NCBI GenBank assembly: GCA_012523295.1
Contig: JAAYIT010000044.1
Span: 1 to 41,056 of the forward strand
Source: Porphyromonadaceae bacterium
GTDB lineage: Bacteria > Bacteroidota > Bacteroidia > Bacteroidales > Paludibacteraceae
Direction of reading: 5' to 3'
DNA: 41,056 nt
Positions 2,408-6,291 of this stretch are shown here, one piece after another (positions within the stretch are counted from its first letter, which is position 1; each line of letters begins with the position of its first letter). The translations under genes were made by a program, and so were the position numbers. Under the pieces are notes generated by a model. The model worked only from the letters and a program-made list of their open reading frames with translations, did not search any database and was not told the DNA's origin.

Positions 2408-3037
2408 TTATTTTATTTCGTCAATAGCCTTTGAAATTCTCTCAAAAATCTCTTCCATTGTTCCCATTCCGTCTATTCCAACGTATTTTCCGAGATTTTT
2501 GTAAAATTCAAGAACCGGTTTCGTTTGCTTGTTATATACATCAAGACGTTTGCGAATTGTTTCAAGATTATCATCGTTTCTGCCGGAAGTTTTTCCTCTA
2601 TTCAGAATCCGTTTTATCAATTCTTCGTCATCAACTTCGAGGTCAATCAAAATGTCAATTTTAGCATTTTTCGTCGAGCAGAGATTTTCCAGCGCTTCGG
2701 CTTGATTGACTGTGCGAGGAAACCCATCTAAAATAATTCCGTTTTTAGGGTGATTCGGCCCAAGCTTATCTATTTTTTTTTCCAATAAATGGATTATCAT
2801 GTCATCCGGTACTAATTGACCGTTAGAAATTAAAGCATCGGCTTTCTTACCCAATTCATTCCCTTTTGCAATCTCTTGTCTTAGCAGTTCGCCTGTCGAA
2901 ACGTGCTGAAGGTTATACTTTTCAATGATAAACGCGCTTTGAGTTCCTTTGCCGCTTCCGGGCGCACCACAAATAATAATATTAATCTTTTTTGAATTTG
3001 ATTCTGATTCCGACAGAATCTCACTTTCCATTTCCAT
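2408..3037 (-). CDS. adk: adenylate kinase
   Basis: Catalyses AMP + ATP to 2 ADP. The P-loop GAPGSGKGTQ lies near residue 24, and the AMP-binding segment STGELLR and the LDGFPRT motif are present. The LID is the short form (NRGKTSGRNDDN), lacking the four-cysteine zinc LID of Gram-positive enzymes. The length is 209 aa from the ATG at 3037. A GTG at 3043 and an ATG at 3031 are alternatives. The roughly 17 residues before the beta-1 strand are Ser/Glu-rich (SEILSESESNSKK), an extension that most bacterial Adk proteins lack. It is monocistronic here, flanked by 200 bp (hpt side) and 314 bp (obg side) without genes. Confidence 0.95.
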   Translation of the reverse strand: MEMESEILSESESNSKKINIIICGAPGSGKGTQSAFIIEKYNLQHVSTGELLRQEIAKGNELGKKADALISNGQLVPDDMIIHLLEKKIDKLGPNHPKNGIILDGFPRTVNQAEALENLCSTKNAKIDILIDLEVDDEELIKRILNRGKTSGRNDDNLETIRKRLDVYNKQTKPVLEFYKNLGKYVGIDGMGTMEEIFERISKAIDEIK

Positions 3038-3243
3038 TTTCACAATAATTATTTATACCATTTACCCAACCAAGGTGGGATAAAGACTAAGAAAAATGGG
3101 ATTAAACGTACACAATAAAGTCTAATCCTCCTAATTTTTTTATAAAATTTTACCTAATTCTGAAACCAATACTTTTTTACATTTCGCTAACAAGTCAGAA
3201 ACGCCATTTCCGGTTAGCTCATACTTTTAAAACAGGAAAATGA

Positions 3244-3783
3244 CTAATCCTCAACAACGGTGTAAATGTCTTTCAGATTTCTGCCGTAGCTGTCATAATC
3301 CAGTCCGTAGCCGACAATAAATTCGTTTGGAATTTTCATGGCCACATAGTCCACTTTGATATCTCTTTTCATTGCGGCCGGTTTTTGGAGAAAAGTCGCC
3401 ACTTTAATGCTTGCAGCGCCTTTTGCTTCGAGCGATTTTATGATTTTCTCCATTGTATTGCCCGTGTCCACTATATCTTCCACTACCACCACATTGCGTC
3501 CTACTACGCTCTCATTCAGTCCCATCACCTCTTTTACGGTGCCGGTGGTGTAAAGTCCTTCGTAGGATGAGAGTTTGATAAAAGTGATTTCACACGGAAT
3601 ATCTACTACTTTCATCAAATCTCCCGCAAACATAAAAGCTCCGTTCAAAACACAAATAAATATTGGATTTTGACCGGCCAAATCACGATTTATGGCTTGC
3701 CCAACTTCATTCACAGCCTTCTGAATTTCTTCACTCTCGATTGAGAGACTGAATTTTTTATCTTTAATAGTGATGATTTTCAT
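3244..3783 (-). CDS. hpt: hypoxanthine phosphoribosyltransferase
   Basis: 179 aa. The PRPP-binding motif VVVVEDIVDTGNTM (about residues 97-110) is typical of purine PRTases, with upstream LNGAFMFAGDL and downstream VGYGLDYD, the purine-contact loop. It salvages hypoxanthine and guanine to IMP and GMP. ATG start at 3783. It is divergent from dnaN, and a TAATTTTG promoter element lies 32 bp upstream. Length and motifs match the bacterial Hpt family; guanine versus hypoxanthine preference cannot be read. Confidence 0.95.
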   Translation of the reverse strand: MKIITIKDKKFSLSIESEEIQKAVNEVGQAINRDLAGQNPIFICVLNGAFMFAGDLMKVVDIPCEITFIKLSSYEGLYTTGTVKEVMGLNESVVGRNVVVVEDIVDTGNTMEKIIKSLEAKGAASIKVATFLQKPAAMKRDIKVDYVAMKIPNEFIVGYGLDYDSYGRNLKDIYTVVED

Positions 3784-3814
3784 CTGTGTTGTGTCTTGTT
3801 TTAAAATTAAGTGT

Positions 3815-3822
3815 CAAAATTA
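3815..3822 (-). promoter_or_regulatory. hpt promoter -7 element TAATTTTG
   Basis: The minus strand reads TAATTTTG, an exact match to the Bacteroidetes -7 consensus TAnnTTTG. It would place the transcription start about 25 nt before the hpt ATG. A clear -33 TTTG is not visible. Confidence 0.6.
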
Positions 3823-3943
3823 GTAAAAAAAAAGCAATTTGGAGATGTTTTTAACAGTTTTGTTTCAAAATTCTTATGTTTCAAATCTATTATGAAAAAT
3901 CAGAAAAAAAGATTTTCCTATTTCATTATTAAAAAATAATACG

Positions 3944-3951
3944 TACATTTG
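3944..3951 (+). promoter_or_regulatory. dnaN leader promoter -7 element TACATTTG
   Basis: Exact match to TAnnTTTG. The predicted start near 3958 gives a roughly 310-nt leader before dnaN, long enough to include all three mini-ORFs and both hairpins. This makes a regulated leader plausible. Confidence 0.6.
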
Positions 3952-4005
3952 CTAAATATTACAAATGCATTCGAAAAAGAATAAAAAATAAGATTTTGAT
4001 AGAGA

Positions 4006-4077
4006 ATGAGCATGTTATTGGGTGAAAACAAATGCCCTGCATGCAAGTTGGATATCGTCCTTTTGAATAAATTTTAA
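4006..4077 (+). CDS. putative leader mini-ORF 1 (23 aa, CPAC motif)
   Basis: ATG at 4006, stop TAA at 4075-4077. The peptide begins MSMLLGENK, contains CPACK and ends LLNKF. It is the first of three small ORFs in series before dnaN, ending 4 nt before the ATG of the next. Cys-x2-Cys is suggestive of a metal knuckle but one pair cannot make a zinc site alone. It is not homologous to the next two peptides. It may be a chance ORF; the tight head-to-tail spacing is the only support. Confidence 0.3.
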   Translation: MSMLLGENKCPACKLDIVLLNKF

Positions 4078-4081
4078 TCGT

Positions 4082-4159
4082 ATGAAACAGCCATTAAAAG
4101 CAAATTTTCACCCAAACGGAATGAAGATGAATGGCGTGTTCCATACGACCATAATATAA
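4082..4159 (+). CDS. putative leader mini-ORF 2 (25 aa, MKQP...NGVFHTT)
   Basis: ATG 4082, TAA 4157-4159. The peptide starts MKQPLKANF and ends MNGVFHTTII. It is homologous to mini-ORF 3 at both ends (MKQP and NGVFHTT identical), while the middle differs. The conserved ends are also the two arms of an RNA/DNA hairpin (4078-4095 with 4130-4148), so conservation may be for structure, peptide or both. The start codon lies inside the 5' arm. No function known to me. Confidence 0.4.
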   Translation: MKQPLKANFHPNGMKMNGVFHTTII

Positions 4160-4177
4160 AAAATAAAATTTAATCGT

Positions 4178-4267
4178 ATGAAACAGCCAATTAAGAAAAA
4201 TCTCAAATCCAAGAGAATGGTTAATGGCGTGTTCCATACGACCTTAGTGTTAAAAAATAAAATATAA
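4178..4267 (+). CDS. putative leader mini-ORF 3 (29 aa, MKQP...NGVFHTT)
   Basis: ATG 4178, TAA 4265-4267, stopping 4 nt before the dnaN ATG. It begins MKQPIKKNLK and contains VNGVFHTTLVL. It is the second copy of the unit seen in mini-ORF 2, 96 nt downstream. A ribosome ending here would sit on the dnaN start, so translational coupling or start-site control is plausible. It is not recognised as a known family. Confidence 0.4.
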   Translation: MKQPIKKNLKSKRMVNGVFHTTLVLKNKI

Positions 4268-4271
4268 TCGT

Positions 4272-5405
4272 ATGAAATTCAAAGTTTCAAGTACCGAATT
4301 ATTGAATCATTTACAAGCGATTAGTCGTGTGATAAACAGCAAAAATTCGCTGCAGATTTTAGACAATTTTCTTTTTAGTCTGGAAGATAATAAGCTGTCA
4401 ATGACTGCATCCGACATTGAAACCACCATGATAACTTCTATGGAAGTAGAAGAGGTGGAAGGCAGCGGAAAAGTGGCAGTGTCAAACAAACTTCTTTTGG
4501 ATACGCTGCGCGAATTTTCTGATATTCCGCTTACGTTTGAGATTGATGATGAGACACTTGCAATGGTGATAAAATCCGAAAACGGTAATTATAATTTCAT
4601 AGGTCAAAGCGGCGATATGTATCCGCAGTTACCCGTTCTGGATGAAAATGTGAAGGATTTGAAAATTTCAGCGCCGGTGCTGTTGAGTGGAATTTCGAAA
4701 ACTTTCTTTTGCATGGCCGATGATGAGCTTCGTCCGGTGATGAACGGAATTTATTTTGATGTAAATGAAGATTTGACAATGGTAGCGACGGATGCTCATA
4801 AGCTGGTCAGATTCAAATCGAATTATATCGAATCTTCTGCGAGTGAAGATGAGTCGTTGAATTTTATTTTGCCTAAAAAGCCGGCGATGATGCTGCGGAG
4901 TATCTTACCGAAGGAAACAGGTGATGTTGAAATAAAATTAGACGCTAAAAATGCTCATTTCCAGTTGAATAACTATGTGATGGTTTGTCGCCAGGTTGAA
5001 GGTCGCTATCCCAACTACAACGGTGTAATTCCAAAAAATAATCCTTTCCAAATAACATTGGATCGTCTGACTTTGCAAAATGCGCTGAAACGAGTTTCTG
5101 TATTTTCGAATCAGGCAAGTAACCTGATAAAACTTGATTTTTCAAGCAATCAGGTTGTGATTTCGGCACAAGATATCGATTTTTCTATTTCTGCAGAGGA
5201 AACAATTGCTTGCGGATACGATGGCGAACCGATTAAAATTGGCTTCAAATCTACATTTTTAATTGAAATGTTGGCAAATGTTGATTCAAATGATGTGATT
5301 TTAGAATTAGCAGATCCATCAAGAGCGGGTATCTTATTGCCTGCAGTGAATGAAGAAGGTGAAGATATATTGATGCTGCTAATGCCAATGCTTTTAAACG
5401 ACTGA
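4272..5405 (+). CDS. dnaN: DNA polymerase III beta subunit (sliding clamp)
   Basis: 377 aa, standard length for the clamp, with three similar domains of about 120 residues. Recognisable segments are MKFKVSSTELLNHLQAISRVI at the start, the ATDAHKLVR motif of domain 2 and the C-terminal LLMPMLLND, which matches the usual ending MPM(R/L)L. Two identical subunits ring DNA and tether polymerase III. The start is fixed by the ATG after TAATCGT. No dnaA or recF is next to it; dnaN stands apart from dnaA in many Bacteroidetes. Its leader is the unusual mini-ORF/hairpin array. A hairpin terminator follows before the exonuclease gene. Confidence 0.97.
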   Translation: MKFKVSSTELLNHLQAISRVINSKNSLQILDNFLFSLEDNKLSMTASDIETTMITSMEVEEVEGSGKVAVSNKLLLDTLREFSDIPLTFEIDDETLAMVIKSENGNYNFIGQSGDMYPQLPVLDENVKDLKISAPVLLSGISKTFFCMADDELRPVMNGIYFDVNEDLTMVATDAHKLVRFKSNYIESSASEDESLNFILPKKPAMMLRSILPKETGDVEIKLDAKNAHFQLNNYVMVCRQVEGRYPNYNGVIPKNNPFQITLDRLTLQNALKRVSVFSNQASNLIKLDFSSNQVVISAQDIDFSISAEETIACGYDGEPIKIGFKSTFLIEMLANVDSNDVILELADPSRAGILLPAVNEEGEDILMLLMPMLLND

Positions 5406-5431
5406 TAATTATTTTCATTTAACACAGTATA

Positions 5432-5511
5432 TTATCTGAACTAACTTTTCAGATAAAATTAGTCTTACTTAGCAGAAAGGTGTAATATTTATGCTTTTCT
5501 GCTTTTATTTT
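5432..5511 (+). terminator. dnaN terminator region
   Basis: There are two successive hairpins. TTATCTGAA (5432-5440) pairs with TTCAGATAA (5448-5456). AGCAGAAAG (5471-5479) pairs with CTTTTCTGCT (5494-5503, one bulge) and is followed by TTTATTTTC. The second has the shape of an intrinsic terminator. It may be leaky, because the exonuclease gene starts 21 bp after the stem. Confidence 0.6.
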
Positions 5512-5523
5512 CAATGATTTTAC

Positions 5524-6291
5524 ATGAAACTGCAACTTAAAAACCCGATTGTTTTTTTCGATTTAGAGACAACCGGTACAAACATTGTAACTGACCGAAT
5601 TGTCGAGATTTCCTATTTAAAGATCTACCCAAACGGACGTGAAGAATCTAAAACCATTCGTATAAATCCTGAAATGCCGATACCGGAATCCGCATCGGCA
5701 ATCCACGGAATTTATAATAAAGATGTGGCCGATTGTCCGACATTCAAAGAGGTGGCTAAGGAAATAATGAGAGATATTGAGGGAAGTGACTTGGCGGGAT
5801 ATAATTCAAACCGGTTTGATATACCGTTACTGGCTGAGGAACTTTTGAGGGCTGAAGTTGATGTGGATTTGATGCGAAGAAAATTTGTGGATGTGCAGGT
5901 TATTTTTCATAAAATGGAGCAAAGAACGCTCTCTGCCGCTTATAAATTTTATTGTGATAAGGATTTGGAAAACGCTCATAGTGCGGAGGCCGATACTATA
6001 GCGACGTATGAAATTCTCCAGGCCCAATTGGATAGATATCCCGAACTGAAAAACGATATCGAGTTTCTTGCAAAATATACGGCGCAAACTAATAACGTTG
6101 ATTTCGCAGGAAGAATCATTTACAATGAAAAAGGGGAAGAAATTATCAACTTCGGGAAATACAAAGGACAGAAAGTTGAAACCGTTTTGAAAAATGACCC
6201 CGGATACTACGGATGGATCATGAGCAGTGATTTTGCTCTGCATACAAAGAAGGTCTTGACCAACATCAAATTAAGGGATTTTCAAAAATAA
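5524..6291 (+). CDS. DnaQ-like 3'-5' exonuclease (DEDDh)
   Basis: 255 aa. The Exo I motif is FFDLETTGT (about residues 11-19). Exo II lies in LAGYNSNRFDIPLL, and Exo III has the DEDDh His and Asp in HSAEADTIATYEIL. The last 45 residues (NFGKYKGQKVETVL...YYGWIM) form the small domain seen at the end of exonuclease X-like proteins (DUF3820-like). It could proofread for Pol III or act as a repair exonuclease. The position right after dnaN suggests a replication role but does not prove it is DnaQ itself. ATG start, with a terminator before and after. Confidence 0.9.
   Translation: MKLQLKNPIVFFDLETTGTNIVTDRIVEISYLKIYPNGREESKTIRINPEMPIPESASAIHGIYNKDVADCPTFKEVAKEIMRDIEGSDLAGYNSNRFDIPLLAEELLRAEVDVDLMRRKFVDVQVIFHKMEQRTLSAAYKFYCDKDLENAHSAEADTIATYEILQAQLDRYPELKNDIEFLAKYTAQTNNVDFAGRIIYNEKGEEIINFGKYKGQKVETVLKNDPGYYGWIMSSDFALHTKKVLTNIKLRDFQK

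Follow-up and report, generated by a model that had tools for sequence, protein, structure and literature searches.

Integron attC sites are folded single strands characterized by two boxes, a bulge and a variable loop. The Rickettsia palindromic elements are mobile, coding-compatible palindromes which lie in frame inside genes. In the IS200/IS605 insertion sequences IS608 and ISDra2, the cleavage sites base-pair with guide sequences and the base that follows the cut is a preferred one; the IS608 guides pair with both the cleavage sites and the target, and here too the next base matters (PMC5934647, in excerpt). The REPs are short, high-copy palindromes of 20-40 bp, tagged by GTAG or CGTC, that are thought to move in trans through RAYT/TnpA-REP: in one system that has been studied, the site of the cut is set by the GTAG motif (PMC8266576, in excerpt), and the CGTC REPs apparently have no dedicated transposase (PMC3733652, in excerpt). 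To such small, guide-using palindromic mobile elements the Bacteroidales hairpins reported here probably add a variant with an unusual target, the start codon of genes, and an unusually compact recognition scheme.

The window, i.e. the whole 41,056-nt stretch of DNA that was analyzed, comes from a Porphyromonadaceae bacterium (contig JAAYIT010000044.1) and contains the leader of dnaN. Direct reading of this leader agrees with what a first-pass annotation had reported from the letters alone: two tandem units with mini-ORFs precede dnaN, with starts 96 nt apart (Table 1). Both begin with ATGAAACAGCC, carry AATGGCGTGTTCCATACGACC as the other arm and end in a TAATCGT that abuts the next ATGAAA, the second such ATGAAA being the dnaN start. 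The same annotation had correctly seen that the start block TAATCGTATGAAA occurs three times in the leader, with its third copy at 4272 as the dnaN start, that the last mini-ORF stops just before dnaN, and that the last 3' arm can pair with its own 5' arm or with the dnaN start: TTCCATACGA (4232-4241) is complementary to TCGTATGAAA (4268-4277) at 9 of 10 positions. The dnaN call is sound (TIGR00663 at 254.9 bits against a cut-off of 137.65; Pfam PF00712, PF02767 and PF02768). Another DnaN-like protein, with 28% identity to this one, is found at G000:C248:27557-28666.

Table 1. Features of the dnaN leader (positions in the window)
Feature	Position	Strand	Basis or remark
Promoter-like TACATTTG, kept from the native dnaN leader	3944..3951	+	seen in sequence; similar block before dnaN in element-free relatives
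Probable third unit, oldest, decayed	4006..4081	+	by eye; GCATG/CATGC hairpin, TAATCGT end, reads MSMLLGENKCPACKLDIVLLNKF-stop
Unit 1, older subfamily	4082..4177	+	profile E 1.2e-19 (profile built from 108 own-genome copies, both dnaN-leader units probably among them)
Unit 2, younger subfamily	4178..4271	+	same profile, E 1.1e-24
Unit 1 mini-ORF, 24 codons	4082-4153, stop 4154-4156	+	
Unit 2 mini-ORF, 29 codons	4178-4264, stop 4265-4267	+	4 nt before dnaN ATG
5' end box ATGAAAC	unit 2: 4178..4184; unit 1: 4082-4088	+	read from sequence
Internal splint GTTCCATACG	unit 2: 4231..4240; unit 1: 4138-4147	+	sequence; covaries with end triplet in relatives
3' end triplet CGT, complementary to splint ACG	unit 2: 4269..4271; unit 1: 4175-4177	+	
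dnaN, DNA polymerase III beta clamp; ATGAAA start as proposed insertion target	4272..5405	+	

Two things had been overlooked: the number of copies across the genome and a probable third, decayed unit upstream of the other two. The distance of the ATG of the latter from TACATTTG, a block which we take to be of the Bacteroidetes TAnnTTTG promoter type, is approximately that of the native start in element-free relatives, and its hairpin appears in the fold of the leader RNA. We grade this unit as probable because the profile detects just its tail, without significance (E 83). As RNA the leader has a more stable fold than any of 100 shuffles (z -3.45). The DNA of a single unit, folded on its own, does not stand out in this way (z -0.6 to -1.4); hence, the case for structure rests on covariation.

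In the genome of this bacterium (4.0 Mb in 417 contigs) the 21-nt arm is matched 183 times at up to 3 mismatches, as against none for the reversed control, and the 5' end of the unit 184 times, as against 5 for its control; the shared hairpin arms pointed out by the first-pass annotation are therefore not a matter of chance. From the stretches fetched from this genome we catalogued 169 distinct profile hits, some of them weak, with 139 at full length. These include 122 arrays with enough downstream flank to be considered, those with too little being excluded: 92 single, 29 double and one triple. As many as 106 of them end exactly at a start-type codon, always at offset 0, which in 100 cases is ATGAA. 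An ORF of at least 60 codons follows 82 arrays and a shorter ORF 24, some of these arrays continuing into other hairpin families; the remaining 16, some of which are truncated units, lack a start codon at the junction. All 20 downstream proteins tested, chosen from 48 candidates, possess Pfam domains, and these are of so many kinds that there is no tie to one gene or pathway. The element is mostly 87-97 nt long, the commonest length being 87-93 nt (179 non-tandem elements). Dispersed copies with exact junctions support the second of the two explanations in the first-pass annotation, namely that a small palindromic element landed in the leader and multiplied there.

The order within the arrays and the state of the site in relatives are consistent with this. 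In 27 of 30 tandem arrays the gene-proximal unit is nearer the consensus than the first unit (p 8e-6): tandems grow such that the unit nearest the gene is usually the youngest, as expected if the element end CGT/ATGAA (the slash marks the junction) is a preferred next target. At dnaN, the one gene at which empty sites were compared, all six resolved leaders of genus relatives are element-free (a further one, L324 from G001, was left out of the resolved set). One of the six (L320) ends in aatcgt/ATGAA, which is either chance or a footprint.

The target of these insertions is short and fixed. Of 235 unoccupied non-coding ATGAA sites in these stretches 58 are gene starts, versus 82 of the 122 arrays (Fisher p 1e-14), the gene starts here resting on simple ORF calls; in the window alone starts make up a larger part of the non-coding ATGAA sites (16 of 41), and thus the excess of start codons may be smaller than the pooled control indicates. 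Selection against landing within genes does not seem enough to explain the placement. The preferred site extends on either side of ATGAA: ATGAAA is present at 73 of 82 element-bearing starts versus 21 of 77 without an element, and position -1 holds a T in 85 of 104 insertions versus 10 of 31 element-free ATGAA starts (p 5e-7). This T is still found in 74 of 93 insertions when those preceded by CGT, possibly the end of an old unit, are left out. Outside this genome the -1 base tracks the splint weakly (75 of 172 versus 65.0 expected; 126 of 5000 shuffles as high), and the flank bases at -2 and -3 give no covariation signal with the splint. No duplication of the target is seen at the insertions: units keep ATGAAAC where the genes start with GTGAA, ATGCA, ATGAG or ATGAT (L018, L116, L062 and L065), though with four such cases later mutation is possible. 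A fixed short target that is not duplicated (100 of 122 arrays at ATGAA) is a feature of the IS200/IS605 type. The terminal inverted repeats and target-site duplication that define MITEs are absent: the element begins with ATGAAAC, ends in an AT-rich tail and a triplet, and its pairing arm is internal.

Across the family the order of parts is the same: the 5' end ATGAAAC, an inner box, a variable loop, the second inner box, an internal 10-mer GTTCCATnnn, an AT-rich tail and the end n'n'n'/ATGAA. Seven bases of the 10-mer are complementary to the 5' end and its triplet to the 3' end; hence, both ends abut on one splint. We listed 146 places (at most 10 per genome), from which removal of two overlapping alternative reads left 144 elements, about six of them kept although they look like chance matches. 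The splint triplet is the exact complement of the end triplet in 86 of these 144 (58 have no full match), whereas shuffles average 20.9 such matches and never exceed 32; shuffles confined to single genomes average 56 and reach 68 at most, and shifted frames yield 0 or 1. Counted once per genome and combination the match holds in 39 of 90 cases, and at least one exact pair is present in 24 of 39 genomes. There are 10 complementary triplet types, of which TTT/AAA derives from a probable chance row; a listing of genus relatives made regardless of the triplet has by eye a full match in 6 of 9. The inner boxes likewise covary, with 98 of 204 elements perfectly paired against a shuffled mean of 54 and maximum of 65 (300 shuffles), the 204 being 213 elements minus 9 reverse-strand reads and including some wrongly assigned 5' ends (G351).

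One position of the outer pairing is a conserved mismatch. In ATGAAAC/GTTCCAT the base that faces A is almost always C (137 of 144, under a pattern allowing C or T); at other loci the fourth base of the 5' box, A, faces C in 198 of 204 elements, a count that is biased because most loci were fetched with patterns fixing or favoring GTTCCAT. On the bottom strand this position becomes a G.T pair, and the centroid folds of that strand place the two ends of both units side by side on the arm/splint. In terms of complementarity the element thereby has the pairing of a guide with its cleavage sites that is known from IS200/IS605, and we infer that the splint pairing would guide cutting. The competing pairing which the first-pass annotation saw at dnaN is real, and its general form is conserved by covariation; a switch specific to dnaN is not supported, and the pairing is most simply read as the pairing by which the element would recognize its ends and its target. 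Rfam has no match at the gathering score in 11 loci, and none overlapping the element at E up to 10 in positions 3000-6000 of the window.

The family is spread across the Bacteroidales. The exact pattern with CGT ends is found in 21 of 393 genomes (one hit for the control) and a triplet-free pattern in 39 of 393, the control of the latter having a single hit in each of 7 genomes, whence a few of the 39 are chance. The triplet-free matches per genome run to 179 in G093, 102 in G351, 92 in G220 and 66 in G117; G000 too has over 50 matches, while the relatives G002, G006, G308 and G184 have few or none. Among the matches listed, the named holders include Paludibacter, Proteiniphilum (P. acetatigenes DSM 18083), Parabacteroides (Parabacteroides sp. 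52), Marinilabilia (M. rubra), Massilibacteroides, and members of the Dysgonamonadaceae, Prolixibacteraceae and Lentimicrobiaceae. At loci from the order scans, 123 elements have a full triplet complement and no ATGAAAC after them, and 101 of these precede an ORF of at least 60 codons; from the genome scan, 80 of 101 loci were analyzed (L213-L292). Plasmid and phage collections searched by blastn, with the units of the own genome as sole queries, gave no match at E up to 0.001; four viral-contig matches were taken as chance, there being by eye no matching 5' end. Literature searches outside subscription papers and preprints returned no description of start-codon elements in Bacteroidales.

The family combines a high copy number, exact junctions, a target preference, element-free dnaN leaders in relatives, growth in tandem and a complementary 10-mer. 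The explanation we favor, and regard as probable, is that the hairpin is a non-autonomous mobile element, about 90 nt long, which inserts precisely before T/ATGAAA, mostly at start codons and in sense orientation, by guide pairing. It would act as a folded single strand, the bottom strand TTTCAT/ACG...GTTTCAT/, in which the 10-mer would hold the two element ends edge to edge; a trans-acting enzyme would cut and join at the abutting ends, probably by way of a circle, and the same 10-mer would then pair with T/ATGAA in a new single-stranded target before insertion. With a unit in place, translation from the native leader would begin at the ATG that the unit carries, while the AT-rich tail of the unit would become the new initiation region of the downstream gene. 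A unit supplying its own ATG and initiation region would explain why landings are tolerated, even before dnaN. This differs from the palindromic elements of Rickettsia, which are inside genes, in that the Bacteroidales element is placed before the start codon and brings a start codon with it. The wider proposal, of Bacteroidales-wide self-guided mini-elements whose internal 10-mer encodes both ends and the target, which find start codons by pairing, bring their own start and initiation region and land before essential genes, is one that we put forward tentatively and hold to be rather less than an even prospect. A mobile element landing on start codons would rewire the translation initiation of many genes at once, that of the replication clamp included; recognition of its ends and target can be put to a direct test through the covarying splint, which, if it works as proposed, adds a minimal guide-based insertion system. 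Parts of these elements may also underlie some of the start contexts and short 'hypothetical' ORFs of Bacteroidales.

What moves the element is the point at which the nearest rival enters: a true REP/IS200-IS605-derived element moved by a Y1 transposase (RAYT or TnpA) of the host. The element resembles IS200/IS605 members such as IS608 and ISDra2 in its insertion beside a fixed short sequence, the hairpin near an end, guide-like pairing and a preferred next base (PMC5934647, in excerpt), and specifically in that insertion takes place 3' of a pentamer that does not vary, TTCAT when read on the bottom strand, with the same sequence at the right end and no target duplication seen. It differs in its size, start-codon target and single outer hairpin, in containing no transposase gene, and in having one shared 10-nt splint in place of two 4-nt guides; we do not claim membership of the class. 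Y1 genes (PF01797) are present, with six in this genome and others in 11 of 12 further element-bearing genomes (12 of 13 overall). However, of the 46 PF01797 matches in 12 genomes none of the 36 loci fetched has arms on both sides (patterns of the ACG type, up to 2 mismatches), and thus no Y1 transposase is tied to the element ends. Single arm-like matches occur at five of these loci (L120, L122, L188, L191 and L200), with a whole unit about 1.2 kb off at L120. By eye the Y1 genes L118-L120 of this genome sit among other palindromes, e.g. CCCCCAGATAAATCTGGGGG, and no Y1 match is found in G387, which is 89% complete and has 18 element matches. In G093, where the element is matched most often, two unusually long Y1-domain ORFs of 278 and 289 aa (L192 and L200, G093:C278) lie about 1.6 kb apart; neither was found to have arms on both sides. 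Nor is the element a REP by form: its ends are ATGAAAC and the nnn before ATG, and it is well over 20-40 bp and has no invariant GTAG or CGTC tag, unlike the REPs as described in the excerpt of PMC3733652. High copy number and a palindrome are shared with REPs; start-codon placement and head-to-tail arrays are not, and no flanking RAYT was found. We consider movement by a host Y1 enzyme as a REP/IS200-IS605 derivative rather unlikely.

The first explanation in the first-pass annotation was a translation-dependent RNA switch: translation of the leader would free the 3' arm to sequester the gene start, and selection on expression would keep the pairing. An arm complementary to both the leader start and the gene start, a splint triplet that covaries with the triplet before the gene ATG, and a structured leader RNA would all suit it. 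The reading frame, which that annotation had proposed to follow through the loop substitutions, bears on it in two ways. In the own family 94 of 98 young units keep it open for 22 codons, and nonsense changes number 4 versus 17.8 expected; in other families the frame from the unit ATG varies widely, stopping at 10 codons or fewer in 72 of 180 (at exactly 4 codons in 63), at 11-20 in 32, and later or never in 76. At the amino-acid level there is no constraint, with 313 nonsynonymous changes versus 283 expected and 90 synonymous versus 106 in the 98 young copies, an expectation that assumes independent copies although subfamilies are not independent. The mini-peptides have no match in Pfam or NCBIfam. 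With unconstrained amino acids and a variable frame, the function is unlikely to lie in the peptide as such. An open frame may be favored in the own family, perhaps because ribosomes starting at the unit ATG would open the hairpin. A switch specific to dnaN is further disfavored by units before many kinds of gene and at non-coding sites, by the want of an Rfam family and by the empty dnaN leaders of relatives, an outcome which the annotation itself had named as telling against it; we regard the switch as improbable.

The mobile hairpin that we prefer may nevertheless place genes incidentally under a leader/start pairing switch, and an effect of the unit on downstream translation is possible. 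In Flavobacterium johnsoniae mRNA structure and upstream adenines tune initiation, and the phylum of the Bacteroidales is naturally without Shine-Dalgarno sequences in its mRNA (PMC6847099, in excerpt). By analogy, the AT-rich tail of the unit could serve this need at initiation, though the C of the tail at -3 is not the favored initiation base.

Similarity to integrons suggests another explanation, in which the hairpin is an attC-like site moved as a folded single strand by a tyrosine recombinase. The folded single strand of the element does have two boxes, a small bulge flanked by AAC/GTT and a variable loop; its inner boxes covary as described above, and a short identical core is present at both junctions. 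Against this, the integron integrase TIGR02249 is over the cut-off in none of 12 element-bearing genomes, and the weaker tyrosine-recombinase matches found in all 12 are likewise found in 14 control genomes. The junction is not at G/TT, and copies are dispersed at start codons rather than collected in one array as integron cassettes are. An integron-like cassette is thus also a poor prospect. Finally, removal of the element from the mRNA after transcription, with the native leader rejoined to ATGAA, would restore that leader exactly by cuts at the two /ATGAA junctions which the splint would align, and is very improbable in view of the missing Rfam match, of the few catalogued copies away from start codons (although a splicing element could live inside genes), and of a length that to our knowledge is too short for any known self-splicing intron.

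Other repeats are seen next to or within the units. At L080, L088, L127, L133, L142 and L140 of this genome the units are followed by what appear to be hairpins of other families, starting with ATGAAACCCACATG or ATGAAACCGACATG, and hence one site may collect members of several families. An inverted-repeat element of about 170 bp, with ends like GATTATCCG and CGGATAATC, lies within the AT-rich tail of the unit at L063, L069, L102 and L109. A palindrome like CCCGATATCTATCGGG is nested in the variable loop at L060, L072 (partly decayed) and L151 of the same genome, and at L408 of G038; this nested palindrome thus occurs in two different genomes.
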